Assembly (NCBI GenBank): GCA_026390795.1
Contig: JAPLFG010000003.1
Coordinates: forward strand, 248,001-312,000
DNA length: 64,000 nucleotides
Direction: 5' to 3'
Origin: Ignavibacteriales bacterium
Lineage (GTDB): Bacteria > Bacteroidota > Ignavibacteria > Ignavibacteriales > Melioribacteraceae
Shown: piece after piece, positions 8,212-64,000 of the stretch
Position numbering within the stretch: position 1 is the stretch's first letter
Layout of the letters: each line of letters begins with the position of its first letter
Program-made: the position numbers and the translations under genes
The notes under the pieces: generated by a model
Database searches by the model: none
What the model saw: only the letters and a program-made list of their open reading frames with translations
What the model was told of the DNA's origin: nothing

Positions 8212-8235
8212 CTAAATTATAATTCCTTTTCTACC

Positions 8236-41526: not shown

Positions 41527-41581
41527 ATTATGTACCTCCATCAAATTTACTAACGACCTTTAATTTATAATTACATTCATT

Positions 41582-43068: not shown

Positions 43069-43568
43069 TATCTAATTAATGTATGAAAGTCAATATTATT
43101 TATTGTATCTCTTTTTCGATTAAAAAAGAATATTTTTTCTCTAATCTCGAAGTGATGGTTAAAGAATGTTATTGCTCCTCGATAGCACATTCCCATATTG
43201 TGTCGGGGGCCAAAAGCGTTCCTTAGTAATATTAAATTATTTACTTGACTTTTCTTTTCTATAGATACTTATGACCCAGCTGGGGATTATGATGACCCTC
43301 GACACATATTGGAAAATCTGGAGAGATGTTTTTATTGTACTATTTCTAAATTATTAAGTTTTATCAGTGCGTTAATTACAACTCCACTTATTACTTTGTG
43401 CTATTCTTTTTTCTCATTCTAATGATTGTCTTGGATTCCACATTAACTTGAACCAAAAACATTTGTAGTCGCCAAGGATGAGAATTTCATCTTGAAATTG
43501 AGAGTGCCCTCAACTTAGATTTATGAGCCTAGGTAACCCCTTTTATAAAGTGCGTTTTACAACATTTT
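43069..43568. other. Intergenic stretch between toxin operon and the seven-gene operon
   Basis: Five hundred bases with no credible gene and no terminator with a clean T-tract. It marks the left edge of the island described at 43,569-64,000. No copy of the repeated ATPase tail could be confirmed here. Confidence 0.45.
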
Positions 43569-45354: not shown

Positions 45355-45362
45355 TTAAATTT

Positions 45363-48053: not shown

Positions 48054-48060
48054 ATTTTAA

Positions 48061-48690: not shown

Positions 48691-48697
48691 GCAATGT

Positions 48698-49675
48698 TTA
48701 TTGAGGTCTCTTTAAACTTTCTATAATATATTTATCTCTTCCGGTTCTTAATATATTGAGAATTGACTGTACCGACATTTTAGACATACGATCACGAGCT
48801 TCATGAGTTAGAGATGCAATATGACCAGTTATCATAAGTTTATTTGGAATCATAGTTTTAAGGTATTGTACTACCTCCACGGGATTTTCGAAAAATCCAT
48901 CGAAAGCAGCATATCCTATTTGACCGTTTTGAAGTCCAGTTACTAATGATTCGGGTTCAACAATATCTGCGCGGGCAGTATTGATAAGAATAGTTCCGCT
49001 TTTGAAATTTGAAATCTGAGACATTCCAATTAGATTTTTAGTCTCAGAAGTACTTGGTGTCATTATAATAATTACATCTACTTCTTTAGTTAGTTGTTCA
49101 AATGTTAGGTAGTTTATACCAAGTCGGTTTTCCTCAGTGGGTTTTCTATTTCTTGAATAATAACTAACCTTAGATCCAAATCCCTTTCGAAGAATCTCAG
49201 CTATTTTTGTCCCAATTCCACCGAGTCCGATTATTCCAATATGTAGACTAGATAATTCAGATTGCTTTTCTTCGTTTCCGGAATGACCCAAAGCAAACTC
49301 AGAGGCGTAAAGAAATAACTTGCGTGTACTATTTAGTAATAATCCTACAGTAAACTCAGCAACTGAATTGCTTAAAGTCCCTGGTGTATAAGTAATTGGT
49401 ATCTGAAATTCCTTGGCCGCTGTTACATCGATAAAGGTTTGGTATCCCATTCCAAGAAATGCAATGATCTTTAGCTCATTAGCAGTCACTAAAGTATCAC
49501 GACTGGCGTATTCATCGCCCCCGAGTAAATAAGCCACTGAAGATTTAAGTGCGTTTTTCAATTCGCTCTCAGATAAAAGATGCGTTGGATTATCAATTGT
49601 GTACCCAGCGCTAACAAGTGGTTCTAATAGTTCTTGTCGAACACTAGAGCCAGTTACAAGAATTTTATTTGACAT
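48698..49675 (-). CDS. D-isomer-specific 2-hydroxyacid dehydrogenase
   Basis: This is about 325 residues, with the Rossmann motif GIIGLGGIGTKIAEIL. The catalytic pattern is Arg in NTARADIVE, Glu in FENPVEVV and His in TGHIAS. These enzymes interconvert 2-keto and D-2-hydroxy acids with NAD(H). The ATG at 49673-49675 follows GGTG; five further codons upstream are possible. It belongs to the seven-gene operon and may reduce a keto acid made by its neighbours. Confidence 0.88.
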   Translation of the reverse strand: MSNKILVTGSSVRQELLEPLVSAGYTIDNPTHLLSESELKNALKSSVAYLLGGDEYASRDTLVTANELKIIAFLGMGYQTFIDVTAAKEFQIPITYTPGTLSNSVAEFTVGLLLNSTRKLFLYASEFALGHSGNEEKQSELSSLHIGIIGLGGIGTKIAEILRKGFGSKVSYYSRNRKPTEENRLGINYLTFEQLTKEVDVIIIMTPSTSETKNLIGMSQISNFKSGTILINTARADIVEPESLVTGLQNGQIGYAAFDGFFENPVEVVQYLKTMIPNKLMITGHIASLTHEARDRMSKMSVQSILNILRTGRDKYIIESLKRPQ

Positions 49676-49749
49676 TGTTTTTTTCACCATATATAGTTAT
49701 AAAAATTTTAAACTGATTCAATTCTTAATTTTACAGAATTACTGTGACT

Positions 49750-51087
49750 TCAGTTTCTCTTTTTATTAGAATTGCAAACTATGGGCTTTATAAAAAGATT
49801 GTTTGGATCATATAATTTTACCAAAGTTCTGATTCTTTCAAGTTTTTCTTTTCCAAACACCCTTGTCAACTCTAAATCATTAGGGTAGGTATCGTAAAGA
49901 TAATTAATATAGTTTGTGTCGTTATCTCGAACTAAACTATTATACAACTTTCTAGTCCATAAAACATTTAAATCGTCTCTGTCTTGGTTCTCCCAAGTAG
50001 AGGTTATAAGAATACCATATCCTTCCTCTCTTTTGTTAAAGGCTGAATCCTCGACTGGTATTTGACACATTTTCCCATGATATCTCTCTATAAATATTGA
50101 ACTATATCTAGATGGTTTTTGCTCAATTGCTTCTTTAATTAATTCCCAATCAAAATTTATCAATTCCTTTTTTATTACTGATTTCCAGTATGATCGCATC
50201 CCATATTTTTTCTCATTATCAAAATAACTTTGAAACTCAACGTAGTTAGAAAAAATTTTCTCTATAATAATTTCATTCGTAAATTCTTTTTTAATATTGT
50301 TCACGAAGTTCTCAATTTCGTCACTATTTTGATCCTCGAAATTTGCGAATGCAATTTCTAAACTAATAACTTTTTGATTATTTTCTAACGTCAGAAAGGA
50401 TAAGAAAAAAGTAATTTTAAATGAATCATTATTAGTTAAATCTGAATATAAGTTTACAATTTTGTCAAAATTATCATAACGTATTAAGAAATTATAAGCG
50501 ATGAACTTTTTAATTTTATGCAGGTTAAAAATTATTTTGGTAACAACACCAATTCCAAAACCGGCTCCTTTGAGAAGCCAGAATAGGTCTAAATTAGTTC
50601 TATCGTTACAAACAATTTTTTCTCCTAAATAATTCAAAACTTCAAACTCTAATATATTATCCGAAGTTGAACCAAGGCATCCGTGTAACCAACCGATCCC
50701 TCCTCCTAAAGTAAGACCAGATATTCCCGTTGAAGACACAGTACCACCGGTGCAAACTAAACCATGCATAAATGTGTTTTTATCAAATATTGACATTGTT
50801 ACACCAGGCTCACATATTGCAAGTGATTTTTTAGGAAACACTTTAATGTGTTGCATATTTCTAACCGAAATTACCACCTCTCCTTGAATAGCTCTACCCG
50901 ATACGTTATGCCCACTACCCAGTACACTGATACTTTTTGAATGTATTCTCGCAAATTTTATGGCCTCTATTATATCTTTATCATTATTACAGATAAAGAC
51001 AAATTCAGGTTTTTTAGAAATCATTCCGTTATATATACGTATACTTTCCTTATAACCGATATCATTTGGACACAACGCGATGCTCAT
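49750..51087 (-). CDS. FAD-linked oxidoreductase of the BBE/PCMH type
   Basis: This 445-residue flavoprotein has a PCMH FAD-binding domain. It carries the covalent-FAD histidine in GSGHNVSG (His60), the glycine-rich GLTLGGGIGWLHG segment and the BBE-type C-terminus (NYINYLYDTYPNDL...KLYDPNNLF). Such enzymes oxidise alcohols, sugars or amine carbons with oxygen and often act in natural-product pathways. It follows the MppP-like gene by 11 bases. Confidence 0.85.
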   Translation of the reverse strand: MSIALCPNDIGYKESIRIYNGMISKKPEFVFICNNDKDIIEAIKFARIHSKSISVLGSGHNVSGRAIQGEVVISVRNMQHIKVFPKKSLAICEPGVTMSIFDKNTFMHGLVCTGGTVSSTGISGLTLGGGIGWLHGCLGSTSDNILEFEVLNYLGEKIVCNDRTNLDLFWLLKGAGFGIGVVTKIIFNLHKIKKFIAYNFLIRYDNFDKIVNLYSDLTNNDSFKITFFLSFLTLENNQKVISLEIAFANFEDQNSDEIENFVNNIKKEFTNEIIIEKIFSNYVEFQSYFDNEKKYGMRSYWKSVIKKELINFDWELIKEAIEQKPSRYSSIFIERYHGKMCQIPVEDSAFNKREEGYGILITSTWENQDRDDLNVLWTRKLYNSLVRDNDTNYINYLYDTYPNDLELTRVFGKEKLERIRTLVKLYDPNNLFIKPIVCNSNKKRN

Positions 51088-51098
51088 TGCTGTAATCT

Positions 51099-52223
51099 TT
51101 ATTTAATTGGAAAACTTTTACACATAATTTCCATCATTCTTCGGACTGATTGTTCAAAATACTCTGGTATCCTTGCTAATGCTATTCTCATATACTTTTC
51201 CCCTAATCCATTTCCGCTCCAATAAAACTTTTCTCCAGGTAAAGTTATAACTCCACCTGATTTCAATATTTGGCAAATATAATTGGAGTCTTTATGCAGT
51301 TTAGAAGTATTAATAAATTCAACGCTAACAGTAGAATTGCTATTGTACGTTTCTAAATCCATTGTCTCCAATGCTCTCTTTAAAGTATTTCGATTTTCTT
51401 TAATAACATTAAGTACTGGTCTGCTTTTAAGTTTCATTTCTAAACATGCAAAATCCTTTAGTATACTCAATATAAAAGGAGATACATTCAGCATAAAATC
51501 ACAATGGACATCATTAAGTTTATCAAATAAACTACGAGAACATACAATTATTCCAATTTTTAGGTCGTGTAAAGGCCAATATTTACCAGTGTCTTCTATA
51601 ATAATATAATCAATATTTGATTTTTCACATATCTCTCTCATATCATAACTAAGCATCTGAGGCGAGAAAAGTCTAAAACAAGCGTCAACTATTAACAAAA
51701 CATTATTTGTAAAACAAAAACTACAAATTATTTCCAACGCTTCTTTTGTTATTATTTCTCCAGTTGGATTATTAGGCACAGTGACGAAAATGGCGTTTAA
51801 ATTGTGATACAATTCAGGTTTTTCTAATAAGATTCTATAATTTTCGTGATCGCCGAATGGAATTAACTCAATTCCATGCCTATATAATATGTCAGGTATA
51901 TTATCAAACGTTGGTTCTACAAGAGCCATTTTTTTTAGGTTATACAAACGTAAAAAATTTGCTATAACTTCCATAGAGATTGAGGAGGCATACGATAATA
52001 AAGTCTGTTCATATTTATAGGTTTGCCCAATAAGTCTGAAATACTCTTTCAAAAATTCTTGTCTTAAAGTATAATAATTTTGTAAGTCAACACTGTCGAA
52101 CTTATTGCCAAAAGTATTTATAATAGAATCATATTCTTTTAATTGCAATTTTCGGGTATGAGCGTCCCCAAGGTTAAACATATAATGTAAACCTTCAAGC
52201 TCTATTTTTGTCAAGCTAGCCAA
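51099..52223 (-). CDS. PLP-dependent enzyme of the MppP (arginine oxidase/hydroxylase) type
   Basis: This 374-residue fold-type I enzyme has NNPTG at residues 151-155 and the PLP lysine at Lys222 in DTGKYWPLHDLKIG. The motifs SYASSISMEV, VEPTFDNIPDIL and IIIEDTGK, and a start resembling NIADGHAR, match MppP of enduracididine biosynthesis much better than ordinary aminotransferases. MppP oxidises L-arginine with PLP and oxygen. It is the first gene of the operon, so the pathway may start from a guanidino or other basic amino acid. That is an inference. Confidence 0.8.
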   Translation of the reverse strand: MASLTKIELEGLHYMFNLGDAHTRKLQLKEYDSIINTFGNKFDSVDLQNYYTLRQEFLKEYFRLIGQTYKYEQTLLSYASSISMEVIANFLRLYNLKKMALVEPTFDNIPDILYRHGIELIPFGDHENYRILLEKPELYHNLNAIFVTVPNNPTGEIITKEALEIICSFCFTNNVLLIVDACFRLFSPQMLSYDMREICEKSNIDYIIIEDTGKYWPLHDLKIGIIVCSRSLFDKLNDVHCDFMLNVSPFILSILKDFACLEMKLKSRPVLNVIKENRNTLKRALETMDLETYNSNSTVSVEFINTSKLHKDSNYICQILKSGGVITLPGEKFYWSGNGLGEKYMRIALARIPEYFEQSVRRMMEIMCKSFPIK

Positions 52224-52458
52224 GATACCACCTATCGCATAAGCGCTAAGATTTACAATAACACTTTTAAGTAACCAAAAATTTTATATTATAAATTTTT
52301 TGTACTAGTTTTTAAGTATTCAACATTTAAGAATCATAAACATCACTGTGATGCTTCATTAAGCAAGAAAAAATAAAATATAATATTGGAATTAATCACT
52401 TCTAAAGATATATAGTATTTTTATTATATTTTTTAAAGAGTAATTAGTCTTATCAGAA
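52224..52458. promoter_or_regulatory. Upstream region of the seven-gene operon
   Basis: About 235 AT-rich bases lie between the first operon gene and a repeated ATPase tail. The operon promoter should be here, but no motif is strong enough to name. Confidence 0.35.
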
Positions 52459-52560
52459 TCACCATAAACTCTCTTTCAATCTTCTTAAAGCTCGCACCAC
52501 AAAACCACTTACCATTTCTTGTTTTTCTCTTTTCTGAACTTCTGATATTGCATTCAGCAT
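52459..52560 (-). pseudogene. Repeated 3' tail of the HerA/TraD-like ATPase gene, copy D
   Basis: In the minus direction this reads NAISEVQKREKQEMVSG, then FVVRALRRLKESLW and a TGA. It aligns with the C-terminus of the 62,889 gene (TISETQKKEKQDLVSG, then VVVRALRRLKRDL). The upstream part of a gene is missing. The reading is conserved as protein but diverged as DNA. It separates the Kiwa module from the NACHT/biosynthetic operon. Confidence 0.85.
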
Positions 52561-52738
52561 CCACTTGAGAAACCAGTACAAAAAAATGAACTGTTTTCTT
52601 ATTTATTCGCTCTAACAAAATTGTCAATTCTTGCATCCAAACACAGTAACGCTAATTAATCATCATGGCTTAATACTTATATAAAATGTTTATTAGAATA
52701 ACCAATCTTAATGAGTAACTTAGCCCGATGAATGCAAT

Positions 52739-52754
52739 TTTGCGATCTCGCAAA
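52739..52754. terminator. Palindrome downstream of kwaB
   Basis: Arms TTTGCGA and TCGCAAA are separated by two bases. It lies in a GC-richer patch (52,735-52,800) after kwaB that also contains CGCCC/GGGCG arms. It could be a terminator or part of a recombination site; there is no clean T-tract. Confidence 0.35.
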
Positions 52755-52801
52755 CGCTGCGCCCATAAACTCTGAACGGCAGGGCGGTTAATTAAGTCGT
52801 T

Positions 52802-53785
52802 TTATTTAACAACTTCTTTAGAATCAACAAGATATTCGATATCTGTAATTTGTGAAATCTCATAATCATCATTCAATACTCTTGCAACTACTTTTAAATC
52901 GGCGTCCTTATCAACAAACCATTCTTTTTGATCATCTTTCAATTTTAGTTTTAATTGATATTTTTTATTTAGAGCAACCAACTTCTTATAGTAAATATTT
53001 TTATAATAGTTATTTTTATTTGCTGAAAAGAGTTTGTGAGCTAACCGCGTATTTGTATCAATTTTTATCTTTACATCATCCGTGTCTTCGAATATTATTT
53101 TACAATCTTGTCCGACGGACTTTTGAGCCGTTAGTGCACAAACAAGTTCATTTGCGACATTTTTATAATATTCATGAAAACCAAACACTCTTTCAAATGC
53201 AGACATCTTTGAAACAATGAAAGTATTTTTATAATAAAGAAAGTCCATGGCGTAGTTAATATTAAGAATATTTTCATCAAGCATTTCAAATTGTTTATTC
53301 TTTTCAAATAGAGTAAGAAACTTTTGCGAGAGCATCTTAGATGGCTGAAATTTTTGAAATATTAGTAATTGCTCAGTTCGATTTTTAAGCACCAATTCAA
53401 AACGTAAAATCCAAGATTTGATTTTATCTTCTCTGATGGATTCTTTATTATAATTTGCACATGGTTTTTCACCGGTTACAAATTCTAATATCTCCGGAAA
53501 GCTTTTAATTTCATCTGGGTTCATTTTAAATAATATTTGATGAGAATCAGGGTTATATACGGGTATGCTCTTCATTTCATCAATTTTAAAAATGCTATCA
53601 ATCTCATTTAAATAATCATCTCCAATGGTTCTGATTTTAGCTATCGCATTTTTTTGAATGTTTAACGAATAAATTGTTATGGGATTCGTTTTAGTGCTTT
53701 TATTTTCGAAAAGGTACAGCGATACTTTTGCCACTTTCAATTCATCTAATTTTTTCAATTCCTTAAATTCTTTAATATCAACCAT
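52802..53785 (-). CDS. kwaB: Kiwa defence protein KwaB (DUF4868)
   Basis: This 327-residue protein fits KwaB in length, in its DUF4868-like sequence (central FVTGEKPCANYN, FQKFQPSKMLS and MDFLYYKNTFIVSKMSAFERVFGF) and in its position after KwaA. In the known Kiwa system KwaB is a DNA-binding effector at the membrane with KwaA. It overlaps kwaA by eight bases. The cofactor or ligand sites were not identified. Confidence 0.82.
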   Translation of the reverse strand: MVDIKEFKELKKLDELKVAKVSLYLFENKSTKTNPITIYSLNIQKNAIAKIRTIGDDYLNEIDSIFKIDEMKSIPVYNPDSHQILFKMNPDEIKSFPEILEFVTGEKPCANYNKESIREDKIKSWILRFELVLKNRTEQLLIFQKFQPSKMLSQKFLTLFEKNKQFEMLDENILNINYAMDFLYYKNTFIVSKMSAFERVFGFHEYYKNVANELVCALTAQKSVGQDCKIIFEDTDDVKIKIDTNTRLAHKLFSANKNNYYKNIYYKKLVALNKKYQLKLKLKDDQKEWFVDKDADLKVVARVLNDDYEISQITDIEYLVDSKEVVK

Positions 53786-54350
53786 TACTAATCTCCTTCA
53801 ATAAATAAAGATTTTTCTCGATTTGAATTGTAGAAATAATTTCCGAATGCTTGAGAATAAAATAGTCTTCTTTACTAATTAATACGACTTCTTTAGATTT
53901 TTTCCAGCCATCTTTTGTCCATTCAACCTTTAGAATATGAAACCCAAAGAAAGCAAGTATTGGATTGATACCTATCATATCGCTTTTAATGTATAGGATC
54001 CCAATGACTATCAAAAGGAAAAGTGAAATTGGAAATTGTTTCTCAGTCGGGAATCCTAGAAATGGTAGAATGTAAGTAAAAATGTAGGCAAGAATTTCTC
54101 CATCCATATTTTGAACATTTATTATTTTCATTGATTCAATAGGCGATGATTTATTTTTGAAATATTTCAAAAATGTTAAAAGAAGAACTATTAGAATACA
54201 AGTGAAAACTATAAGAGAGAACGAAATGAAAGGATTCTTGAAAAATGGGTAAATAAGTTCTCGGAAATCAATAATAAGAAAAATGATACCTAGGGGAATA
54301 TAAGAGGTCAGGAATAAAATCAATCTTGATAATAAAGTTAATTTATTCAT
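53778..54350 (-). CDS. kwaA: Kiwa defence protein KwaA, membrane sensor
   Basis: This 190-residue protein has four predicted transmembrane helices (about residues 7-28, 38-62, 87-100 and 106-135) and a cytoplasmic tail, the KwaA plan. KwaA senses phage attack at the inner membrane and acts with KwaB. The ATG follows AGGAATAACC. Together with kwaB it forms a complete two-gene Kiwa system. Confidence 0.82.
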   Translation of the reverse strand: MNKLTLLSRLILFLTSYIPLGIIFLIIDFRELIYPFFKNPFISFSLIVFTCILIVLLLTFLKYFKNKSSPIESMKIINVQNMDGEILAYIFTYILPFLGFPTEKQFPISLFLLIVIGILYIKSDMIGINPILAFFGFHILKVEWTKDGWKKSKEVVLISKEDYFILKHSEIISTIQIEKNLYLLKEISNG

Positions 54351-54589
54351 GGTTATTCCTAATTAAAATTTCAAACTTACGCTGTCTGTAATTAGTACCT
54401 TAGTTCAAGATGTCGAATAGTTACAGCAACTTTTATTTATAAAAATGTTTCTTTGAACAACCTACTTTGAGGAACAACATGGTATTACAAACCAAACTTT
54501 ATAATTACACAAATGCCGCACTGAAAAACGCTGTCCGTGTTGAGCGGCGTGTTAGAACACATTCCCAAAATTATTAATGAAAGAATGTT
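54351..54589. other. Intergenic patch with a possible attC-like site
   Basis: In the minus direction TTCTAACACGCCGC is followed by TCAACACGGACAGCG and GTGCGGC at about 54,515-54,560. The wording is like the left half of integron attC sites, but the right R' box is not clear. No gene is seen. Confidence 0.35.
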
Positions 54590-54697
54590 TAGCACATTCT
54601 TAAAACTGAATTCAATATATAAATCAATCTCTTTGCAAAAATTTATATTTCTTTGTTTTATATTTATCGATTCACTAGAATGTAATTCACAACAAAC
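54590..54697 (-). pseudogene. Remnant of a DUF6232-like gene, C-terminal part
   Basis: The minus strand encodes VCCELHSSESINIKQRNINFCKEID, matching VCVDLHSGETIYIKRRNLDFAKRLTD of the intact 56,485 protein, then degenerates. DNA similarity runs over about 108 bases. It is the tail of a second, decayed DUF6232-like gene on the far side of the RiPP module. Confidence 0.8.
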
Positions 54698-54810
54698 AAT
54701 AGAGTCAATAAAAGATTAAATTTCTCCAAAGAGCCAAACTTTGAAATCACGGTATACTAGTAGCATCCTTGTTGATACGATAGTTTGGCAGATGATTAAA
54801 AAAACAAATT

Positions 54811-56109
54811 TCATACATGCATTTCTTTTTTATACATATTCATCTTTGTTCTTAAACATGTAAACGCACAGCGCGCTTTATAATCCCCGTACTCGGCATA
54901 TGATCTACCTGGACAAATCTGGCAATAGTTGATAGCTTTACAGGAAATGCAATCTATTGGCAAATCTTTAAATTTGAAATTGAGAAATTCTTTTAATGTT
55001 TCCGACTCTGTTAAGATTTGTTCAAGGCTTTCGTACCTTATATTTCCAATAGGTAACCTGAAGGCGCTGCAAGGATAAACTGTCCCGTCAGATTCAATGG
55101 CAACCCTGTCAATTCCCGCATTACATACTAATGACTCAGGATTCTTATCTGAATATTTTAATTTCAAGCGAAAATCACTTTTGTCAAAGTTCACCAAATC
55201 CAGATTTGATATTCTCAAATCAAGTGGGAATGTGTCCCCATCCATCTTTTTTATAATAAATGGATCAAAAATAATTGATTTGGCCCCTAACGAGTATGTA
55301 AATTCTTCGATTTCCTTGAGATAATCTTTATTATATTTTGTAACCATCGTTTTTACAAATACATCTAGTCCTGCATTAGATAAGAGTCGAATAACATTTG
55401 TGGTTTTAGTAAATGTTCCACGCTTCCGAGTAATTTGTTCATGGAGTTGAGCAGTATGTCCGTAAACACTAATACTCAAATCCCTTGGTGAATATACTTT
55501 TAGTAGGTCAATTATGCCTTCGTCTAAAAGAGTACCATTTGTGTTTAATCCAAAAGCTAATTTAGCTTTCGAAGCAAGTTGAAAAATCTGTAGCCAGTCT
55601 GGACGCATAAAGAGTTCCCCACCAGAAAAATGTACAAATTCCGCGCCTCTTTCGACAAGCTGAAAAAATAATGAATCAAAATGTTCTAGTTTCATTTCGT
55701 TATGCCCGCCATAATCATCGATAAAACAATGTCTACATCTAAGATTACATTTCCTCGTTAGAATAACCTGTACATTTTCAATTGCATACTTCTGCCAAGA
55801 TCTTATATTAACCTTTTTTCCACTTTTGTAAATTGATAATATATTTTGACGGTAAAGATTCTTCAGAAGTGATTGAGCATCCTCAAATACTTGTTCAAGG
55901 GTTATGTTGAAGCGAGAGGTCATCTTACGTAAAACACTATCAAGAAATTTATGCTCGATGAGACTAGATATAATGAAAGCTGCGCTAAAGTTAATTTGCT
56001 GACGAGAAACATCATTTGACAAATAGAAATTATCATCATCCTTAATGACTTTATATTTAGGATCAATAACATAATCAAATTGACTTATGTTGGTTGAAGT
56101 TATATTCAT
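54811..56109 (-). CDS. Radical SAM peptide maturase (PqqD-like RRE + radical SAM + SPASM)
   Basis: This 432-residue enzyme has an N-terminal PqqD-like peptide-recognition region (about residues 15-95). The radical SAM cluster motif is C121-x3-C125-x2-C128 (CNLRCRHC), followed by the GGE-type HFSGGELF. A C-terminal SPASM-like cysteine set is visible in VYPCSAF, CISCKAINYCQIC and ARCAFTC. Such enzymes install thioether or C-C crosslinks in ribosomal peptides. The precursor gene lies 75 bases upstream. No peptidase or exporter is next to it. Confidence 0.9.
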   Translation of the reverse strand: MNITSTNISQFDYVIDPKYKVIKDDDNFYLSNDVSRQQINFSAAFIISSLIEHKFLDSVLRKMTSRFNITLEQVFEDAQSLLKNLYRQNILSIYKSGKKVNIRSWQKYAIENVQVILTRKCNLRCRHCFIDDYGGHNEMKLEHFDSLFFQLVERGAEFVHFSGGELFMRPDWLQIFQLASKAKLAFGLNTNGTLLDEGIIDLLKVYSPRDLSISVYGHTAQLHEQITRKRGTFTKTTNVIRLLSNAGLDVFVKTMVTKYNKDYLKEIEEFTYSLGAKSIIFDPFIIKKMDGDTFPLDLRISNLDLVNFDKSDFRLKLKYSDKNPESLVCNAGIDRVAIESDGTVYPCSAFRLPIGNIRYESLEQILTESETLKEFLNFKFKDLPIDCISCKAINYCQICPGRSYAEYGDYKARCAFTCLRTKMNMYKKEMHV

Positions 56110-56184
56110 ATTTTTCTCTTTTTAGAGTACTTAGTTAAAACTTGGCTTGCCCGATCAAATCCAGACAAGCCAAGTTTATTCTAG

Positions 56185-56334
56185 TTAACTCTCGTTGTAA
56201 TGCGCACCACAACTGGACGTACACTTACATGAACCGTCGAGTAAGTTCTCAACTTCCGGTTTCTCGTATTCGAAGTTTAGAAGTTCCAGTTCCTCTGGAT
56301 GCAGCTCTTTTGTGTTCCTAGTTTCTTCGTCCAT
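56185..56334 (-). CDS. Probable RiPP precursor peptide, Cys-rich core
   Basis: A 49-residue ORF with an AAGGAG ribosome site. It has an acidic leader (MDEETRNTKELHPEELELLNF...) and a compact C-terminal core DGSCKCTSSCGAHYNES with three cysteines. It lies 75 bases upstream of a radical SAM maturase with a peptide-recognition domain. The pattern suggests a sactipeptide- or ranthipeptide-like product. The product and its target are unknown. Confidence 0.8.
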   Translation of the reverse strand: MDEETRNTKELHPEELELLNFEYEKPEVENLLDGSCKCTSSCGAHYNES

Positions 56335-56397
56335 TGCATTCTCCTTATTTTAATGAGTGAACAATAGGATTTTTTGTAATACAAATGACTTTAGACA

Positions 56398-56455
56398 TTT
56401 TACTGTCTAACAGCCTTGCCGCTAATAGTTTAACCCGCAGTTTTATTGCGGGGCA
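56398..56455. other. GC patch after the DUF6232-like gene, possible attC-like site
   Basis: The minus strand holds CCGCA/TGCGG inner arms (56,434-56,452 on the plus strand reads CCCGCA...TGCGGG), TTGCC/GGCAA outer arms and ends in GTTAGAC, which fits the GTTRRRY box of integron attC sites. A matching RYYYAAC box was not seen. It could instead be a terminator hairpin. Confidence 0.35.
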
Positions 56456-56484
56456 ACCCAGAACAAGAATGTAGAAAAGAATAA

Positions 56485-56877
56485 TTAGTCCATTCTTAAA
56501 ACCGAATTTAATATATCGGTTAATCTTTTAGCAAAATCTAAATTTCTTCGTTTTATATATATTGTTTCACCAGAATGTAAATCAACACATACAATATATA
56601 CTGGATCTGTAAAATCTTGATAAAAACCTTTAAGATTAAAACCCCCTATTCCCAAACCGATTAATCCTAGAATAAGCCCAATAGTTGAGAAAGTAAGAAT
56701 ACCATAGAGTCCCGCAATCGCTACTAAAAGATTTATAAGTAAACCCTTAACATCAAACGGTTCTTTAATAAAAAGAACGCTTTTAATTGAACTTAGTTGA
56801 TAATATTTGTTTTCGTAACTCAGTTTTGTGCGTGTTACAAGTACACCGCCTTCATCAAATAAATTTTGTTCTTCCAT
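56485..56877 (-). CDS. DUF6232-like small membrane protein
   Basis: This 130-residue protein has an N-terminal beta part (LVTRTKLSYENKYYQLSSIKSV), two close transmembrane helices (about residues 46-80) and a C-terminal PH-like end (VCVDLHSGETIYIKRRNLDFAKRL). This fits the DUF6232 family. The family often sits in defence-type neighbourhoods but has no proven role. A decayed second copy lies at 54,590. It has a good AAGGAT ribosome site. Confidence 0.65.
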   Translation of the reverse strand: MEEQNLFDEGGVLVTRTKLSYENKYYQLSSIKSVLFIKEPFDVKGLLINLLVAIAGLYGILTFSTIGLILGLIGLGIGGFNLKGFYQDFTDPVYIVCVDLHSGETIYIKRRNLDFAKRLTDILNSVLRMD

Positions 56878-56934
56878 TTTAATTTATCCTTAATATTTGA
56901 GAAATAAATTTTTCCACATACATATGGAATTTAA

Positions 56935-57156
56935 CTATCTCAAAGTATGCCCACAAAGTGGACAATGCACATGACGACTTGAGCATGAATGACATATAAA
57001 GTGGCCTTTCGAACATGACTTACCACCAGAAATATCTTTTTCTTCGCCGCAATTATCACAAACTCGGTGGCCCATCGCTGTTCTAAAAAAGTCATTTTGA
57101 ATTGGCATTGAATCCATTTCAAATGAAGGAATTTCTTGTGAGTAAACTTTTTCCAT
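56935..57156 (-). CDS. Small zinc-ribbon/RING-like protein
   Basis: This 73-residue protein has eight ordered Cys/His ligands: CDNC, CSKGHFIC, HSC, HVHCPLCGH. It is consistent with two zinc sites in a cross-brace or ribbon. A strong GGAAGGAG ribosome site precedes the ATG. The function is unknown; RING-like ubiquitin-ligase activity is possible but not shown. Confidence 0.7.
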   Translation of the reverse strand: MEKVYSQEIPSFEMDSMPIQNDFFRTAMGHRVCDNCGEEKDISGGKSCSKGHFICHSCSSRHVHCPLCGHTLR

Positions 57157-57304
57157 TAGGTCTCCTTCCTCTACTGATTGATTATTTTTTGTTCTAACTT
57201 TTACTTACTCAGTATGAAATTATTAGTACGGAAAATATATAAGCATACAGTTTCATTGCTACAGTTACTATGTTTAGCTTTCAAAGTATTGCCTAGCTCA
57301 TTCA

Positions 57305-57448
57305 TTATTCGTAATAATATAGGATCTGATAATACTCGGAGCTAGTAGTTATAATTAAAATATCCTCTCTTTGGATATTCTTTTCTTTTACAAAATCTGT
57401 CAAATGTTTGTAAGATATAAAATCCATTGCTTTTAATTCTTTTTTCAT
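57305..57448 (-). CDS. Small 47-residue protein, unknown
   Basis: The frame reads MKKELKAMDFISYKHLTDFV, then KEKNIQREDILIITTS and ends in YYE. It is a compact alpha-beta-like small protein with no family I can name. An AAAGAGA sits upstream of the ATG. It lies between the zinc-ribbon gene and the tail repeat. Confidence 0.5.
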   Translation of the reverse strand: MKKELKAMDFISYKHLTDFVKEKNIQREDILIITTSSEYYQILYYYE

Positions 57449-57879
57449 TTTATTCTGTCTCTTTAATTATGTGTTCTAACATATATTTATACTGAATTCG
57501 ATCCGCTGTGGTAAATCGCTTTATCTTCCTTTTTTTACTACGATAAAATAAATTCATACTATCCTTTATCATCATATAAATATTCTAAAATCATAAAAAC
57601 AATTTTTTTGTCTTGATAAATAACTTATGTGAAATCATTTATCGCGAAATTATTTCTTGATAAAAACACTAATCCAATGGAATCCTTACGCAAATCCTTC
57701 GACTCAATTCACGTGCATAAATCATGTTTGTCTTAACCAATTGATGTCTGAGTAGTTTTTGTTGTTCATGACCATTTTAAGCTTTGAAGATATTCCTTCT
57801 AATCATGCTTTTTATCTTAGTGTCTGAGATAACATTTCAATAAAAAATAAAAAAAAGTCTCATACATATAACCTCAAAT
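57449..57879. other. Intergenic stretch before the tail repeat
   Basis: About 430 AT-rich bases with no gene seen. It leads into the tail repeat at 57,880. Confidence 0.4.
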
Positions 57880-57965
57880 CTTGAACCTTGATCAAGCTTA
57901 TAAATCTCTCTTTAATCTTCTTATTGCCCTTACAACTACACCATTCACTAGATCTTGTTTTTTTC
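57880..57965 (-). pseudogene. Repeated 3' tail of the HerA/TraD-like ATPase gene, copy B
   Basis: The minus strand reads KQDLVNGVVVRAIRRLKRDL and then TAA. From the end of the gene through CTTGATCAAGGTTCAAG downstream the DNA is nearly identical to the intact gene end at 62,871-62,960, including a run of over 40 identical bases. Similarity ends upstream of the Gln-Lys-Lys codons. It ends the five-gene caspase module. Confidence 0.9.
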
Positions 57966-58133
57966 TGGGAAATAAAAGGTAATGCCAATATTTCAGTTTG
58001 CAAATGTTAATTCATAATCTTTTTTTGTAATTAATTTCATTTAAAAACTTACTAATTTGATAGGAGGTCTACAATTCATTGTTAGAATCTATATATCTAT
58101 AATTAAAGCCCATCTATTGATACAATTTATATA

Positions 58134-58162
58134 GGGGAAAACGAAGAAATATTTTCTTCCCC
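58134..58162. terminator. Hairpin after the 102-aa gene
   Basis: Inner arms GAAGAAA and TTTCTTC flank TAT, with outer GGGG/CCCC. It lies 22 bases past the stop of the 58,184 gene. No T-tract follows on the minus strand, but one does on the plus strand, so it may be bidirectional or only structural. Confidence 0.4.
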
Positions 58163-58183
58163 GTATAAAGATTTTTTATTCAC

Positions 58184-58492
58184 TCACTTTTGGGCCGAGA
58201 CCAGTGTAAACTTTTCATCAAAATGAACAAGAAGCATCTCAATGAATCGACCATGATATACTCCGATGACTTCTTTTGTCAGAATTACATTTTCAGGACT
58301 AACAATTATAAACTTCAAAATATTAGATTGGATACTTGGGCGAAGCCAGGCCTTATTCTTCCATTGAGGAGGAGTATGTGTAAAATCGCCGTCTTTATCA
58401 TACGTCCATGTATCAACGGCTTTATCATCAATTGTCTTCTTAATTAACTTAAGTAAATTTTCGGGTGTAGACGTGCTAATCAAAAGTGCCAT
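58184..58492 (-). CDS. Conserved small protein of unknown function
   Basis: This 102-residue soluble protein begins MALLISTSTPENLLKLIKKTIDD and contains TWTYDKDGDFTHTPPQWKNKAWLRPS. It resembles small hypothetical proteins I have seen in several bacterial groups, without an assigned role. It is the last gene of a five-gene set with a caspase-like protease and has an AAGGAG ribosome site. Confidence 0.6.
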   Translation of the reverse strand: MALLISTSTPENLLKLIKKTIDDKAVDTWTYDKDGDFTHTPPQWKNKAWLRPSIQSNILKFIIVSPENVILTKEVIGVYHGRFIEMLLVHFDEKFTLVSAQK

Positions 58493-58587
58493 TTCGTCTC
58501 CTTATTTTTTTAATATTAGAATAATAAAATGTTATATCCTTAAATTTGCTCTTACGCATATTAAAAAATCAAAGTACCAATATTTTT

Positions 58588-59340
58588 TTATGCTATAACT
58601 GCAAACGGGAAATACTTTTCCTCTTTTGGTTTTTCAATTTGTGGATTTTGTCTATCACCACTTAATCGTTTAGTTTTTATACTAGCCTTCTCGTGCGCCA
58701 CGGGTAAAGAGAAAATGTTATAGAACTTACTTGTATCAGTTGAGTCATTATTCTCCCACTCTTCAGCAGAATCAATAAGGCTAAATGAATAGTATCCACC
58801 GCGAGCACTATCGTCATTTGATACTTCATCAATATTACACGAATATAAGACTAACAATGCTTCAGTACATTCCTCTATGCATTTATCGTAATACATTCTA
58901 CAGCTTTGTTTATTCGTTACGTGATCGGATAGTTTTATCATCCTTTCTTGAAATGATTTAACTAGAACAGATTTTGCAATTTTCCTGCAGCAGTCCACTA
59001 TTATAGTCTGTCTTGGGCTTCCTTTTCGTAATTCATTTAGATCAATTGTTTCAACTTTATTTAGTTCTAGGATCGTTGATTTTACCGAAGAAGAATATTC
59101 ACCGTGACCAGAGAATATTACTTTCGTGTAATCATAATCTTTCAATTTCCCAAGCGCTTCTCTAGTTTTTTTGAGATTTGGTTTTAATAACACTTCGATT
59201 TCATTATCATACCACAACCCACCCAACGGAGATGTTAAAAATGACTTATAATTTTGTAAATCTTTATTAACGCCGTCACAATAATTTACAGCACCGATCT
59301 CACCTGGGTTTCCAATAATTATAGCTCTCCTTTTGATCAT
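58588..59340 (-). CDS. Caspase-like (C14) protease
   Basis: This 250-residue protein has a caspase-type p20 core: strand RRAIIIGNPG, catalytic His79 in VIFSGHGE, and the D-x-C motif IIVDCCR with probable catalytic Cys118 after Asp116. Bacterial caspase-like proteases act in several abortive-infection and cell-death systems. The C-terminal region past residue 200 ends with a Lys/Pro-rich tail. It lies downstream of a membrane-protein gene in a five-gene operon. Confidence 0.8.
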   Translation of the reverse strand: MIKRRAIIIGNPGEIGAVNYCDGVNKDLQNYKSFLTSPLGGLWYDNEIEVLLKPNLKKTREALGKLKDYDYTKVIFSGHGEYSSSVKSTILELNKVETIDLNELRKGSPRQTIIVDCCRKIAKSVLVKSFQERMIKLSDHVTNKQSCRMYYDKCIEECTEALLVLYSCNIDEVSNDDSARGGYYSFSLIDSAEEWENNDSTDTSKFYNIFSLPVAHEKASIKTKRLSGDRQNPQIEKPKEEKYFPFAVIA

Positions 59341-59358
59341 ATTTTACATCCTTGTTTT

Positions 59359-60150
59359 TTATTTATTGGAATCATTTAGTGTGTTGCTTTCAACTTTTGC
59401 GATAAGGGATGGAACCCAGCGCTCGCTAGCGCCTGCAATCACACCAGCTAAAACCATCGCGACTTGAGTATTATTAATATTTGAAAATATTGGTACCAGT
59501 AGTTGCAGTTTTACACACAAAGCTATAATAATGGCAGAAATGCAACCCGCTATAATTCTAGATCCTCCTTCATAAAAATGTAAATCCTTTCCTGCTGCGG
59601 GGTTAAGATTGGTTTTCCCCAATCTCATTATCACAGATAAAAGAGCACCCAAAGCTCCACAACTGCCTGCGATTAAAAGGAAAAAGGTTGTCTCTCCCAA
59701 CATTGGTTTAAGAAAATATTTCGTTAGCCATAAGATAGAACCAAGTACAGTCACAATTAAAGCCGTGCCACCACTTGCTTTCAAAAACCATAAACGTGAC
59801 TGTTCATTATTTCTGTTTGTAATAAACTCTTCAGCATTTTTTGCCATCTGCATAGCATTTTCATAGTCTGTTTTAAGATTTCTTACTATTGCCTCTCCAA
59901 TCATCCTTTTGAAATTAATGCGAATATTTTTGGTAAGATGATCATTTGGAATGCATTCTAATTTAGTAACATAATTAAATACCATATTTTGTTTTTCTTC
60001 ATCTGGATTCCATTTCTCATCGTAATCATCATTATGCGACCAATCGATATCTATCACTTTATCAATCCAGACAATAAATTCATCTGTCTCATAAACTAAG
60101 TATTCGATTTCCTCATCCTTGGGCCACAATCGATTTTCCAAATTTTCCAT
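59359..60150 (-). CDS. Membrane protein with four predicted helices
   Basis: This 263-residue protein has an acidic N-terminal cytoplasmic part of about 120 residues (multiple Asp/Glu-rich segments, one coiled-coil-like stretch). Predicted transmembrane helices lie near 128-148, 156-174, 200-220 and 230-248. I recognise no family. It is the likely membrane component for the adjacent caspase-like protease. Confidence 0.65.
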   Translation of the reverse strand: MENLENRLWPKDEEIEYLVYETDEFIVWIDKVIDIDWSHNDDYDEKWNPDEEKQNMVFNYVTKLECIPNDHLTKNIRINFKRMIGEAIVRNLKTDYENAMQMAKNAEEFITNRNNEQSRLWFLKASGGTALIVTVLGSILWLTKYFLKPMLGETTFFLLIAGSCGALGALLSVIMRLGKTNLNPAAGKDLHFYEGGSRIIAGCISAIIIALCVKLQLLVPIFSNINNTQVAMVLAGVIAGASERWVPSLIAKVESNTLNDSNK

Positions 60151-60191
60151 TTTTTCTCCTTTTCTTACAATTCATTTTTGAATCTTCACTT

Positions 60192-60518
60192 TTAGATTAA
60201 TAGAATCGGCAATTTGGAATTCACCATATTTTTTACTGCATCCATTGCGTTATTAACAGCATTTTGAGCAATTACTTTTGTCATTCCTTCAGCAGCAGCC
60301 AAAATTGCTATAGATGCCTCCTTTTGTTGATTGAGCAAGATAGGTGCTTCCTCAATTGTAATTGATCCTTTTACTACTCCTTCGGTTATCATCACTAAAG
60401 TTTCTGCTAGATTTTGTCCTTCTCTTTTCAAATAGTCAAAAACCGCTTGAGGTTTGTGACCTAATTCAGTTCCAGCCGCACTCAGTATTGTGTTTTTTAA
60501 ATCATCAATAAATGCCAT
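60192..60518 (-). CDS. Small helical protein, unknown
   Basis: This 108-residue, mostly helical protein contains TELGHKPQAVFDYLKREGQNLAETLVMI and an Ala-rich C-terminal half. No motif points to a function. It has an AAAGGAG ribosome site and lies in the caspase operon. Confidence 0.6.
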   Translation of the reverse strand: MAFIDDLKNTILSAAGTELGHKPQAVFDYLKREGQNLAETLVMITEGVVKGSITIEEAPILLNQQKEASIAILAAAEGMTKVIAQNAVNNAMDAVKNMVNSKLPILLI

Positions 60519-60539
60519 GGTAGTTCTCCTTTATAATAG

Positions 60540-61046
60540 TTATTGAGGGCTTTTCCCTGTTTTTTTTGCTAATTCAAGAGTTAGAGCAGCAGAAATGGTT
60601 TGATTTATATTTCTCCTACATACTTCTAAAACAGCCTTTGAGGGTCCATAACTTTTATTATGATCATTTAAACAATGCAAATCTTTTAAGCCGGTTTTGG
60701 GTTGTGATGTATCTTCATTACCCAAAATAGTTAATCGAATTGTTTTCACAATGATAATAGTTTGATCATTCTTTGGAATTGCGGCAACTCTAAACTCGAG
60801 TATCTTGATTTGGTTATCCAGCATGTCATAAGTTTTTTGGTGCTTCGCAAAAGCAGCCGTATCAGTCCCTGAGAATTGTTCAAGGCTGTCAATGAATATT
60901 GATACTGATTGCTGCAATGTTGTGAGATATTTATCGGTAACCTCATCGTAATTTGAAATAATTGTTATTGAATTACAGGCTACTAATAATGAAATAGTTA
61001 GTGAAATGACAAATAGTCTTCTCAAATTATTTTTTTTGAATTTCAT
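60540..61046 (-). CDS. Predicted lipoprotein, first gene of the caspase operon
   Basis: This 168-residue protein has a lipoprotein signal with lipobox LLVAC (Cys near residue 24) and a helical body. It starts with a strong AAGGAGGAAGG ribosome site. As the first gene of the five-gene set, it may be a periplasmic-side sensor. That is an inference. Confidence 0.65.
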   Translation of the reverse strand: MKFKKNNLRRLFVISLTISLLVACNSITIISNYDEVTDKYLTTLQQSVSIFIDSLEQFSGTDTAAFAKHQKTYDMLDNQIKILEFRVAAIPKNDQTIIIVKTIRLTILGNEDTSQPKTGLKDLHCLNDHNKSYGPSKAVLEVCRRNINQTISAALTLELAKKTGKSPQ

Positions 61047-61167
61047 CCTTCCTCCTTAATAAACATTGTGTTTGAATTAATATTTTCATCAAAAATTAAT
61101 TTTGTATAGCATACTACCGAACTTGTATATGTGACTATATTTATATAATAAGTTTCCTAAAACAATT

Positions 61168-61245
61168 TTCTGCTTTTCACCTTTTAATCTTCGAAGTGCG
61201 CGTACTACTACTCCGCTCACAACTTCCTGCTTTTCTACTTATTAA
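61168..61245 (-). pseudogene. Repeated 3' tail of the HerA/TraD-like ATPase gene, copy C
   Basis: The minus strand reads EKQEVVSGVVVRALRRLK, then GEKQ without an immediate stop. The amino acids match the intact end at 62,889 closely while many codons differ synonymously. It lies just beyond the metallophosphoesterase stop (61,261), separating it from the caspase operon. Confidence 0.85.
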
Positions 61246-61260
61246 AGAAGTCATAAACAT

Positions 61261-62781
61261 TCATTTATCGAATGAAAGAGTTATTGGAAACTTACTTAGT
61301 ATTTTATTTGAAAAAGATGATGTCTTTTTTTTATTCGTATCAGTAAATTCTTTTTCTTGCGAAAAACCATCCTTGTCGAAATTTTTTGTATCATCATCCC
61401 AATCATGGCGCGAAGATTTTATGTGATATCCGGCCGCATCTCTTTTTATTGTATAGTCATTAAAGCTTCGCTCCCTGGAAAAATCACTAACTGATTTTGA
61501 TGCTGAGCCAGCCATTAGCTGAAGAAAAGGTCTATGTTTAAATTCTTTTATTATTTTATTTAATTCGGACACTATTTTTTTAAGTTCTTGTCGTTTTGTT
61601 TGAGAAATAGAAGTATTAATAAACTTCTGAATTTCTCTAAGCTCATGAGAAGAAATTTCGGATTTACCTTTGAATTGAAAATCTATTATTAGTTTTTTAA
61701 GTTTTGATTCAACTTTATCCGGATCTTCTAAAAATTCATTTAATAAATCTACTAAGGCAGATTCGGAGACTTCATCATGAGTATTATCTTTAACCGATAA
61801 GGAAAGAAAATTAAAGAATTGAGAGATTAGCCTATCAAAGAATTTTCCATTTTCATCGCTGTATTGCATTGGTAGTGAAGGAATGCCAATGATTCTTCGA
61901 AAATAATTAAATAATAGGCGATGTTTTGCTCTTCGGTTAAAATGGTCACCATATTGTTGAGATTGAAAATCAGGTATATGCTTGTGGCCACATAACAAAA
62001 TATCAAAATCTGACATTGCAAAATTTTTAATAGCCACATCTCTATGGGACATGCTCATAAAGTAATCATATTTTTTTTCAACGGGTTCAAATAAATAATG
62101 GTGCATGACAAGTATTTTTAATGATTGAGCAAATTTCTCTTTGAGTATACATTCTTGATTATTATTAGGAATATTTAGATTGCCTTTCATTCCTTTATCA
62201 TACCATTCCAATAAAACTTCTGATTGCCTTATTGTAATGTTTCCTCGCGCAATTTTATCAAAAATCATAGCTTTATTATCTTCATTCTCAATTTGAGTAT
62301 CACCCAAATGGCATGAATCTAAGAATGCCATAAATATGTACATATTGCTTTTTTCTATCCAATCGTAGTAAGCAAAGTGTGGTGGTTGCATTGCATAATA
62401 ATCCTTAAAAGCAAAATTGTAATGTTCGAGTGATTTTTGTTTCCTATTCGTAAATGTTCCACTTTTTTCATTATTGAAAGCATCATGGTTTCCAGGCACA
62501 ATGCGTGTAATTGAGGGCGATAAATGCAATCCAGTTTCATCACCTTCGCCGATTTGCAATTTATTGAAAATCCATCCTCTCGCAGTTAAGAGACTTTCTT
62601 TATCACCATAATTTGATAAATCGCCAGTAATGATAACTCGATCATAATTATTATTTTCAGTATAAAACTTTTCTATACCTCTTAAACGACTTATAGAATG
62701 CTTATGATTCGGTGATGACTTATCTTTACCTTCAGTAAAATGTAAATCTGATAAATGCAGTATTTTAATTTCTGATTCCAT
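61261..62781 (-). CDS. Calcineurin-like metallophosphoesterase
   Basis: This 506-residue protein has the full metal-site set: Asp12/His14 in LSDLHF, Asp54 in ITGDLSNYGD, GNHD at 97-100, VMHH in the middle and GHKH further on. A C-terminal helical region of about 200 residues with a Ser/Thr-rich end follows. The family hydrolyses phosphodiesters or nucleic acids. It is the only gene between two ATPase tails, so it may form a one-gene defence module. Confidence 0.85.
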   Translation of the reverse strand: MESEIKILHLSDLHFTEGKDKSSPNHKHSISRLRGIEKFYTENNNYDRVIITGDLSNYGDKESLLTARGWIFNKLQIGEGDETGLHLSPSITRIVPGNHDAFNNEKSGTFTNRKQKSLEHYNFAFKDYYAMQPPHFAYYDWIEKSNMYIFMAFLDSCHLGDTQIENEDNKAMIFDKIARGNITIRQSEVLLEWYDKGMKGNLNIPNNNQECILKEKFAQSLKILVMHHYLFEPVEKKYDYFMSMSHRDVAIKNFAMSDFDILLCGHKHIPDFQSQQYGDHFNRRAKHRLLFNYFRRIIGIPSLPMQYSDENGKFFDRLISQFFNFLSLSVKDNTHDEVSESALVDLLNEFLEDPDKVESKLKKLIIDFQFKGKSEISSHELREIQKFINTSISQTKRQELKKIVSELNKIIKEFKHRPFLQLMAGSASKSVSDFSRERSFNDYTIKRDAAGYHIKSSRHDWDDDTKNFDKDGFSQEKEFTDTNKKKTSSFSNKILSKFPITLSFDK

Positions 62782-62888
62782 GTTTACTCTCTTAAGTTAA
62801 TTATGTTTATAGCAATTACTTGTGCTGTATTGGATTGTTGTAGAATAGTCCCATGATTATAACCACCAACCTTGAACCTTGATCAAGC

Positions 62889-64000
62889 TTATAAATCTCT
62901 CTTTAATCTTCTTAAGGCTCTTACAACTACACCACTCACTAAGTCTTGTTTTTCTTTTTTCTGAGTTTCTGAGATTGTTTTGTATTCCACTTTCACTCGA
63001 TATCCTTTTATAACATTTTCATTTCCTTTTTTGATTTCTTTTATTGTTTCTTCTTCAAAGAATAAAATCAGTTTATCTGGTAGCATGAAAAAAACTTTAT
63101 CTAAATATTGCGGGGCTAACTTGTCAGTAATTAATTTTCGAACCGCATCGATTCTTTTCTGTTCCGGAGAGCAGAATAGAACTTTGCTGTATCCGGACTG
63201 AAAACATTTCTCGATATTTTTCAATTCATGATCATCGTTTGTAGTCACTGAGATTTCGCATGCAATTTTTTCACCATCACGCTCAAGCCCCACATCTACT
63301 CGTCCGAGTTTATCAAGAGTCTGCTCTTCGACAACAGCTTTATAACCTCTTTGTTCTGCTAATTGCTTGATCAATGTTTGTAGATATTTATGATAAGTAA
63401 TATTCTTTTGATTTTCATTTTGCACAGGTAGAGTAATAACATCTATTTTATTAGTAGTTGCAGATTCTTTCTTTTCCGCTTTTCTTTTTATCGGTGTGTG
63501 AGATAGTGGATAAATTTGGGGGTCAGATTTTATTCGTTCAATAACAACTGGAATTCCGCCATATTTCTTTCTTGATAATTCTATAATCTCATTTTTATTT
63601 TTTTGAGCTTGTTCAGAAACAATATTTAACGGTAAAAGTGTTTTGATATTAAAATCATAATCAGATCGTTCCACGCGAACCACCGCATCACCAATACTCA
63701 GATTCTGTAAATCATTCGTATCGAAATGTGTAAATCCACTTTCAAGTTTCTGCGCATCAAAGTCACCAATCCGAAAACAAATTCGAGTTCCCGCATTTGA
63801 TATGATGGAGTTGGCAAGTCCGGTGTCTGTTTCCCATAGTTGATGTAAGTCTTGATGTGCAAGAATCAATCCCATATGATATTTTCTTGCACCTGATAAC
63901 ATTGCTTTCATTGATGGAGTAATAAAGTTTTGAAACTCATCTATATATAAATAAAAAGGTTCGCGTTCATGACTACTTTGTAATTGTCGCTGCATGACAA
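62889..64000 (-). CDS. HerA/TraD-like DNA-translocating ATPase, C-terminal part (truncated by window)
   Basis: The visible 368+ residues include Walker B in FYLYIDEFQNF, the LILAHQDLHQL sensor and the RICFRIGDFDAQKL region typical of conjugative coupling or HerA-type ATPases. A C-terminal restriction-like segment follows (GRVDVGLERDGEKIACEISVT, with E-x-S in place of the usual E-x-K), then the tail SGVVVRALRRLKRDL. The N-terminus lies beyond the window and the frame stays open. Copies of its last codons recur at 61,168, 57,880 and 52,459, which makes its 3' end the probable insertion point of the island's modules. Confidence 0.85.
   Translation of the reverse strand, partial: VMQRQLQSSHEREPFYLYIDEFQNFITPSMKAMLSGARKYHMGLILAHQDLHQLWETDTGLANSIISNAGTRICFRIGDFDAQKLESGFTHFDTNDLQNLSIGDAVVRVERSDYDFNIKTLLPLNIVSEQAQKNKNEIIELSRKKYGGIPVVIERIKSDPQIYPLSHTPIKRKAEKKESATTNKIDVITLPVQNENQKNITYHKYLQTLIKQLAEQRGYKAVVEEQTLDKLGRVDVGLERDGEKIACEISVTTNDDHELKNIEKCFQSGYSKVLFCSPEQKRIDAVRKLITDKLAPQYLDKVFFMLPDKLILFFEEETIKEIKKGNENVIKGYRVKVEYKTISETQKKEKQDLVSGVVVRALRRLKRDL

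Follow-up and report, generated by a model that had tools for sequence, protein, structure and literature searches.

At positions 58184-61046 of a 64-kb window of the Ignavibacteriales contig JAPLFG010000003.1 (the window being the whole stretch of DNA analysed here), five open reading frames (ORFs) lie together on the minus strand, among them a gene for a caspase and, immediately upstream of it, a gene for a protein with four predicted membrane helices (4TM). From the 5' to the 3' end of the block, the five are:

60540..61046, minus strand: predicted lipoprotein of 168 aa, with lipobox Cys24
60192..60518, minus strand: helical protein of 108 aa, the partner of the lipoprotein and at most accessory to the caspase/4TM pair
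59359..60150, minus strand: membrane protein (4TM) of 263 aa, a soluble N-terminal part followed by four predicted membrane helices; core of the pair
58588..59340, minus strand: single-domain caspase (Peptidase C14) of 250 aa; core of the pair
58184..58492, minus strand: small alpha/beta protein of 102 aa, which elsewhere adjoins other predicted effectors

In this order the intergenic gaps measure 21, 41, 18 and 95 nt, and a purine-rich AGGA/GGAG-type ribosome site precedes all five starts at a short distance. Since each of the encoded proteins has relatives in other genomes, the ORFs are genes rather than chance reading frames. An earlier note on this DNA had described five genes with ribosome sites, close together between two repeats, and the ORFs, gaps and repeat copies confirm that layout. 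The lipoprotein, the helical protein, 4TM and the small protein belong to no Pfam or NCBIfam family above its curated cut-off and gave only weak matches in PADLOC and PHROGs, and none of the five genes is named above cut-off by any PADLOC or NCBIfam defence model.

The conserved core of the block is a caspase/4TM pair

To determine whether the five families travel together, each was searched for separately, the neighbourhoods of its relatives were examined, and profiles of all five were run over the resulting 23 relative loci, those from the genome search carrying about 1.5 kb of flank per side unless refetched. These profiles were built from loci that they then scored, so their E-values are not independent and it is the absences that constitute the evidence. 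None of the 23 loci holds all five families. The genes for the lipoprotein and the helical protein are adjacent in every locus that has either (6/6), and the caspase is present in none of these six. The small protein is the sole member of the five in eight loci (0/8 with any of the other four). The caspase was found with 4TM in two loci (L010 and L011, near-identical Chlorobiaceae contigs), where the genes are adjacent, and without it in five (L004, L005, L047, L048 and L049). The five genes are thus one block between repeats, yet not one conserved system; the core that is conserved is the caspase and 4TM, a travelling two-gene pair, and its three neighbours belong to other gene sets. These counts run against the proposal in the earlier note of a single five-gene system reaching from the outer envelope to the cytoplasm, as both the small protein and the lipoprotein/helical pair are found in other settings and relatives carry no more than part of the set together, an outcome that the note itself had named as speaking against its proposal.

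The strongest result is the adjacency of the pair on viral contigs, because the caspase was absent from the query. A scan of viral contigs with an alignment of 4TM alone returned two relatives, and in both a caspase gene directly adjoins the 4TM gene. On the first (L073; IMGVR_UViG_3300031416_000031, 38 kb), 4TM comes first and the pair is flanked by the gene for a large phage protein (LPD39/DarB-like) on one side and an integrase gene on the other. On the second (L074; IMGVR_UViG_3300047160_011840, 7.7 kb), the caspase comes first and the pair is embedded in phage genes, with the small and large terminase subunits on one side and the head-tail adaptor and portal on the other. As the gene order differs between the two contigs, the association outlives rearrangement. 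The 4TM proteins are 36% (L006, the locus of L010), 30% (L073) and 28% (L074) identical to that of the window, and the caspases 43%, 40% and 32%, respectively. Second viral scans with alignments of paired members, a caspase-led one included, added a single contig, L076. Opposite the pair on L073, a second caspase-like protein with a weak CHAT match (18.8 bits, cut-off 24) is encoded at 7105-8295.

The window caspase is a Peptidase C14 protein, having a PF00656 match of 63.0 bits (cut-off 21.4) and an intact His/Cys dyad. As the match fills residues 3-238 of 250, the protein carries no further domain. His79 and Cys118 are invariant in all six aligned caspase rows and in the four rows from caspase/4TM pairs. 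It is the only C14 match in its own 4.08 Mb genome, and C14 genes are uncommon, occurring in one of 14 control genomes. The caspase profile matched six of 395 genomes of the phylum at E 1e-8, the window's own among them, and against genome contigs it returned just the two Chlorobiaceae contigs already in hand. A single-sequence caspase query gave no match in viral contigs, where profiles were required. Among solved structures, metacaspase-1 alone came up as a relative of the profile (E 0.0066).

The AlphaFold2 model of 4TM, made from a four-row alignment, has a mean predicted local distance difference test score (pLDDT) of 80.7 and a predicted template modelling score of 0.63, with long helices at residues 96-142, 153-179, 188-214 and 228-241. 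Hydropathy alone gives four windows above 1.6, two of which overlap, leaving three clear regions. Searches found 4TM in one of 96 relatives, the window's own genome, and in five of 395 phylum genomes, again including its own. Its profile matched 12 of 296 genomes, own among them, seven over a C-terminal stretch only; the matches L057, L060 and L062, each with an in-frame stop, were left unread, and L059, when read, looked like a chance match. As with the caspase, profiles were required, the single-sequence 4TM query giving no match in viral or genome contigs.

The caspase family adjoins membrane proteins of several kinds

On phages, plasmids and islands alike, members of this caspase family adjoin membrane proteins of several kinds, of which 4TM is one. 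In a Leptospira plasmid locus (L005), the caspase is preceded by a protein with one membrane helix (1TM). The viral contig L076 (IMGVR_UViG_2846409915_000003) encodes in succession a helix-turn-helix protein, a 1TM protein, a caspase, a Panacea-domain protein and an integrase, and its caspase, although not itself in the profile made from the four caspases of 4TM pairs, matched that profile at E 4.8e-50. This second membrane partner is conserved, since the 1TM proteins of L005 and L076 are homologous (31%, E 2e-17). The plasmid search found five caspase records from Leptospira, of which two were read and the 1TM protein of L005 was compared. In L048 the caspase itself ends in a hydrophobic helix and is preceded by a 78-aa protein with one hydrophobic helix. 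In L049 the caspase comes after a SLATT_4 protein (213 bits) and a SMODS/AGS_C cyclase, a cGAS/DncV-like nucleotidyltransferase (CD-NTase).

Several kinships were compared and found unsupported: that of the Leptospira 1TM protein with 4TM, that of a Leptospira 110-aa protein with the window small protein (E 0.042 for one pair) and that of 4TM with SLATT_4 (probability 0.1% when profiles were compared, a single SLATT sequence being used). On L076, an ORF with hydrophobic stretches comes after the gene of the Panacea-domain protein (66 bits) and overlaps it; both lie between caspase and integrase (6483-7614), and the two are perhaps a toxin-antitoxin pair. The succession of cyclase, SLATT_4 and caspase in L049 (7115-9776) makes up a locus resembling a cyclic-oligonucleotide-based antiphage signalling system (CBASS) with a caspase.

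Comparison with described systems

The nearest described plan is System 4, a predicted two-gene EACC1-caspase conflict system thought to act at the membrane, in which the membrane sensor EACC1 is proposed to activate the caspase (Kaur et al. 2020, PMC7159879). It was described mainly from actinobacteria and some proteobacteria (PMC7159879). A 5' membrane-protein gene and a 3' caspase gene are likewise found in the window, L010, L011 and L073, and the order is reversed in L074. In contrast to the four long helices of the 4TM model, EACC1 has a single membrane helix, and the System 4 caspase has variable C-terminal domains (PMC7159879), whereas the window caspase has none. Neither the EACC1 domain nor the caspase subfamily of System 4 was recovered: 4TM matched no Pfam family above cut-off, the presence of an EACC1 model in that Pfam copy being unchecked, and the window caspase scored 16.2 bits with NF047832 (caspase_w_EACC1) against a cut-off of 140, which places it outside the EACC1-associated subfamily.

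RexAB, of phage lambda and a P. putida prophage, resembles the pair in being two prophage-carried genes with an inner-membrane protein as effector, which in P. putida has four predicted membrane segments (PMC12894663). Its trigger RexA is a DNA-binding protein (PMC12894663), whereas the partner of 4TM is a caspase; family scans, made without a dedicated RexA/RexB search, gave no RexA-type sensor. Bacterial gasdermins are also encoded beside a caspase-like protease, so that in both cases a protease gene adjoins a gene for a protein that kills, or would kill, at the membrane. The gasdermin is a soluble pro-protein activated by cleavage (PMC9612521), whereas 4TM is a predicted integral helical protein; 4TM showed no Pfam or PADLOC family above cut-off and no PDB fold match at E 0.001, and its model is that of a helical membrane protein. 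In the canu caspase-nuclease loci, too, a caspase is encoded beside an effector and activates it, and phage defence was shown for K. aerogenes CanABC (PMC12799240). They differ in having a nuclease effector and an Ig-like fold on CanA; none of the five genes matched a nuclease family in Pfam, and the PF00656 match leaves the window caspase no room for another domain. CBASS and SMODS-SLATT systems are approached through L049, which joins a SMODS/AGS_C cyclase and SLATT_4 to a caspase of this family. The CD-NTase was encountered only in that relative, PF18144 having no match in the window's own genome as against three of 14 controls. A search for a TIR gene, which accompanies the caspase in Type IV Thoeris, covered the five genes of the block plus two more on their upstream side and gave none.

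The earlier note had also held that the block matches no defence system that can be named. No PADLOC or NCBIfam model indeed names it above cut-off, but the statement was too strong, given that EACC1 System 4 had been predicted in 2020 (PMC7159879) and that caspase-activated effectors have already been described (PMC12799240, PMC9612521). Among open-licence papers, most subscription papers being outside the search, we found none on the 4TM/caspase pair.

A candidate membrane-acting defence switch

The catalytic dyad is intact, the adjacency is repeated in viral and island settings, and the caspase family stands beside other membrane proteins as well. Beyond this we infer where the two proteins are located, that they interact directly, that cleavage occurs and a channel opens, what the trigger is and that the outcome is defence, along the following lines. 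In the resting cell, 4TM would sit closed in the inner membrane and the caspase would be inactive. Infection would activate the caspase, which would cleave 4TM, or else 4TM would release the caspase; 4TM would then open or disorder the inner membrane, and the cell would stop or die before phage release. The pair thus probably acts at the membrane as a phage-defence switch, in the manner of RexAB, gasdermin or canu loci. That it is a mobile module, carried by phages and islands, which through abortive infection or superinfection exclusion guards its host against other phages is a reading to which we give an even chance. This retains one part of the earlier note, which had suggested membrane-triggered cell suicide: the pair recurs, on viral contigs as well as in an island of variable cargo, and this fits membrane-acting defence or suicide, but not as one five-gene system. 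What is of interest here is a phage-carried two-gene pair whose caspase changes its membrane partner.

Within this reading we prefer the membrane protein as the output, because Pfam names SLATT domains as effectors and precedents exist in RexAB (PMC12894663) and gasdermin (PMC9612521). Alternatively, 4TM may be both sensor and anchor and the caspase the killer, membrane disturbance at phage entry activating the protease, which would then cut cell proteins. This is possible, if somewhat unlikely. It is the arrangement that Kaur et al. suggest for System 4 (PMC7159879) and a fair rival to our preference. The variation of the membrane partner (4TM, 1TM, SLATT_4 or a fused helix) around a constant caspase is what would be expected if the partner supplied the input; the Pfam naming of SLATT domains as effectors argues the other way, and it is the cyclase that would supply the signal in L049. 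We think it quite improbable that the five genes together make up a single suicide system reaching from envelope to cytoplasm and assembled only recently in this lineage. They share a strand, short gaps and ribosome sites, and the repeat copies at 61180 and 57853 bound the block, so that the five may have arrived together, but the relative loci set out above (0/23 with all five, 6/6 for the lipoprotein/helical pair without the caspase, 8/8 for the small protein alone) tell against such a system.

A role outside defence, in which the pair would serve the stability or housekeeping of mobile elements (through addiction or protein quality control), also seems to us to have little probability. The pair rides on mobile elements as addiction modules do, and caspase-less relatives of 4TM adjoin ordinary genes; however, the caspase family occurs also in the CD-NTase/SLATT_4 locus, and the L074 pair lies inside a phage head-gene block. 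Such blocks are a frequent site of foreign cargo genes.

Several results weigh against reading the pair as a mobile defence module. Its independent settings are few, namely the window, one Chlorobiaceae lineage (two near-identical contigs) and two viral contigs, and tblastn searches gave no match in INPHARED phages with the L073 caspase or in PLSDB plasmids with the 4TM proteins. At E 0.01, PF00656 fails to match the L076 caspase, which was recognised by the family profile only, and no membrane partner was recognised in the L047 neighbourhood. The 4TM family stands without a caspase beside ordinary genes in L012 and L013, as does its C-terminal part alone in L055, L056 and L058; because of these caspase-less relatives, the C-terminal part may be a general membrane module. 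No known fold matched the model of 4TM at E 0.001, which leaves channel homology unsupported.

A more extended version of the switch, which we consider unlikely, would take the constant minimal caspase as an exchangeable trigger for 4TM, 1TM and SLATT proteins. The pair would then be a superinfection-exclusion device of temperate phages, a protease-gated channel that is neither gasdermin nor Rex, and in the window it would be wired to the lipoprotein pair and an effector-companion protein as an envelope-to-cytoplasm suicide circuit. Membrane-acting caspases link bacterial and animal cell death. Comprising two short genes, the pair would make caspase gating of an integral membrane protein directly testable and, being phage-carried, the use of caspases by phages in conflict with one another. 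If one caspase family swaps its membrane partners, this would reveal how circuits of this kind are put together.

Neighbouring genes and the surrounding island

In this block the caspase/4TM pair has been joined by the lipoprotein/helical pair and the small protein, which are absent beside it elsewhere and may modulate it. The lipoprotein and helical genes (60192-61046) form a conserved pair without a Pfam model. Lipobox Cys24 is invariant in 7/7 rows. The helical protein occurs in seven of 296 genomes, own among them; four of the six others were read, G278 and G303 being left unread. Plasmid records from Variovorax numbered one for the helical protein and four for the lipoprotein, of which one each was read. 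Genes for hydrolases, lipid-active ones included, lie near the pair in four of the six loci (L030, L031 and L037-L040): a patatin in L040, a class 3 lipase in L039 and, in L037 and by eye also in L038, an alpha/beta hydrolase encoded on the other strand.

The small protein (58184-58492), which in the window adjoins the caspase, likewise represents a family without a Pfam model. It was found in four of 395 phylum genomes, own among them, and in eight plasmid records, five of which were read. Its structural model is confident (mean pLDDT 92.2) and matched no solved fold at E 0.001. In four of eight loci it directly adjoins a predicted effector, namely PLD (L021), NYN (L032), TIR (L035) or dCTP deaminase (L036), the last being above the anti-phage dCTP deaminase cut-off (432.6 bits versus 400). 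Our guess is that it is a general effector companion, and a family found beside TIR, NYN, PLD, dCTP deaminase and caspase genes may mark unknown effectors.

The block lies in a region of repeats, the three strongest features of which are:

57853..57962, plus strand: repeat copy, the block's downstream bound; 87% identical to 62844-62953 over 110 bp, profile E 3.2e-30
61180..61235, plus strand: partial repeat copy, the block's upstream bound; BLASTN against the 62844 copy 74% over 54 bp (E 3.6e-4), profile E 8.2e-12
62844..62953, plus strand: repeat copy containing the 3' end of a TraG/VirD4-like ATPase gene (minus strand)

Altogether five copies in the same orientation start at 62844, 61180, 57853, 52464 and 43362, the last two being weaker. 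The weakest has E 9e-4, versus E 0.72 for the best of five shuffles, with a profile made from the same five copies that it recovered. Searched against the whole genome, one full copy matched three places, all within the window. Integron cassettes were considered as a source of the repeats. The five-gene block takes up the stretch between 61180 and 57853, and a metallophosphoesterase gene the interval before it. In a genome of the same genus (L072), a relative of the ATPase with 64% identity has one tail repeat copy, followed by different cargo, namely a BsuBI/PstI restriction gene as well as relatives of the multiubiquitin and ThiF-type genes of the window. Because this ATPase has one tail copy and other cargo, the repeat region (43362-62953) looks like an insertion site at one gene end that collects gene blocks, and the five genes may have moved here together although the set is not conserved.

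Other genes of the window include the metallophosphoesterase (61261-62781; PF00149, 43.1 bits), which matched the DS9 anti-phage phosphoesterase model at E 4e-12, yet with 45.6 bits against a cut-off of 420. A multiubiquitin protein (PF14452) is encoded beside a DUF6791-ThiF protein at 39719-41544, and an FGE-sulfatase domain (125 bits) with a NACHT match below cut-off (25.2 versus 26.7) in the same island at 45363-48053. At 54811-56334, inspection by eye showed a radical-SAM-like protein and, upstream of it, a Cys-containing ORF of 49 aa; this may be a modified-peptide locus.

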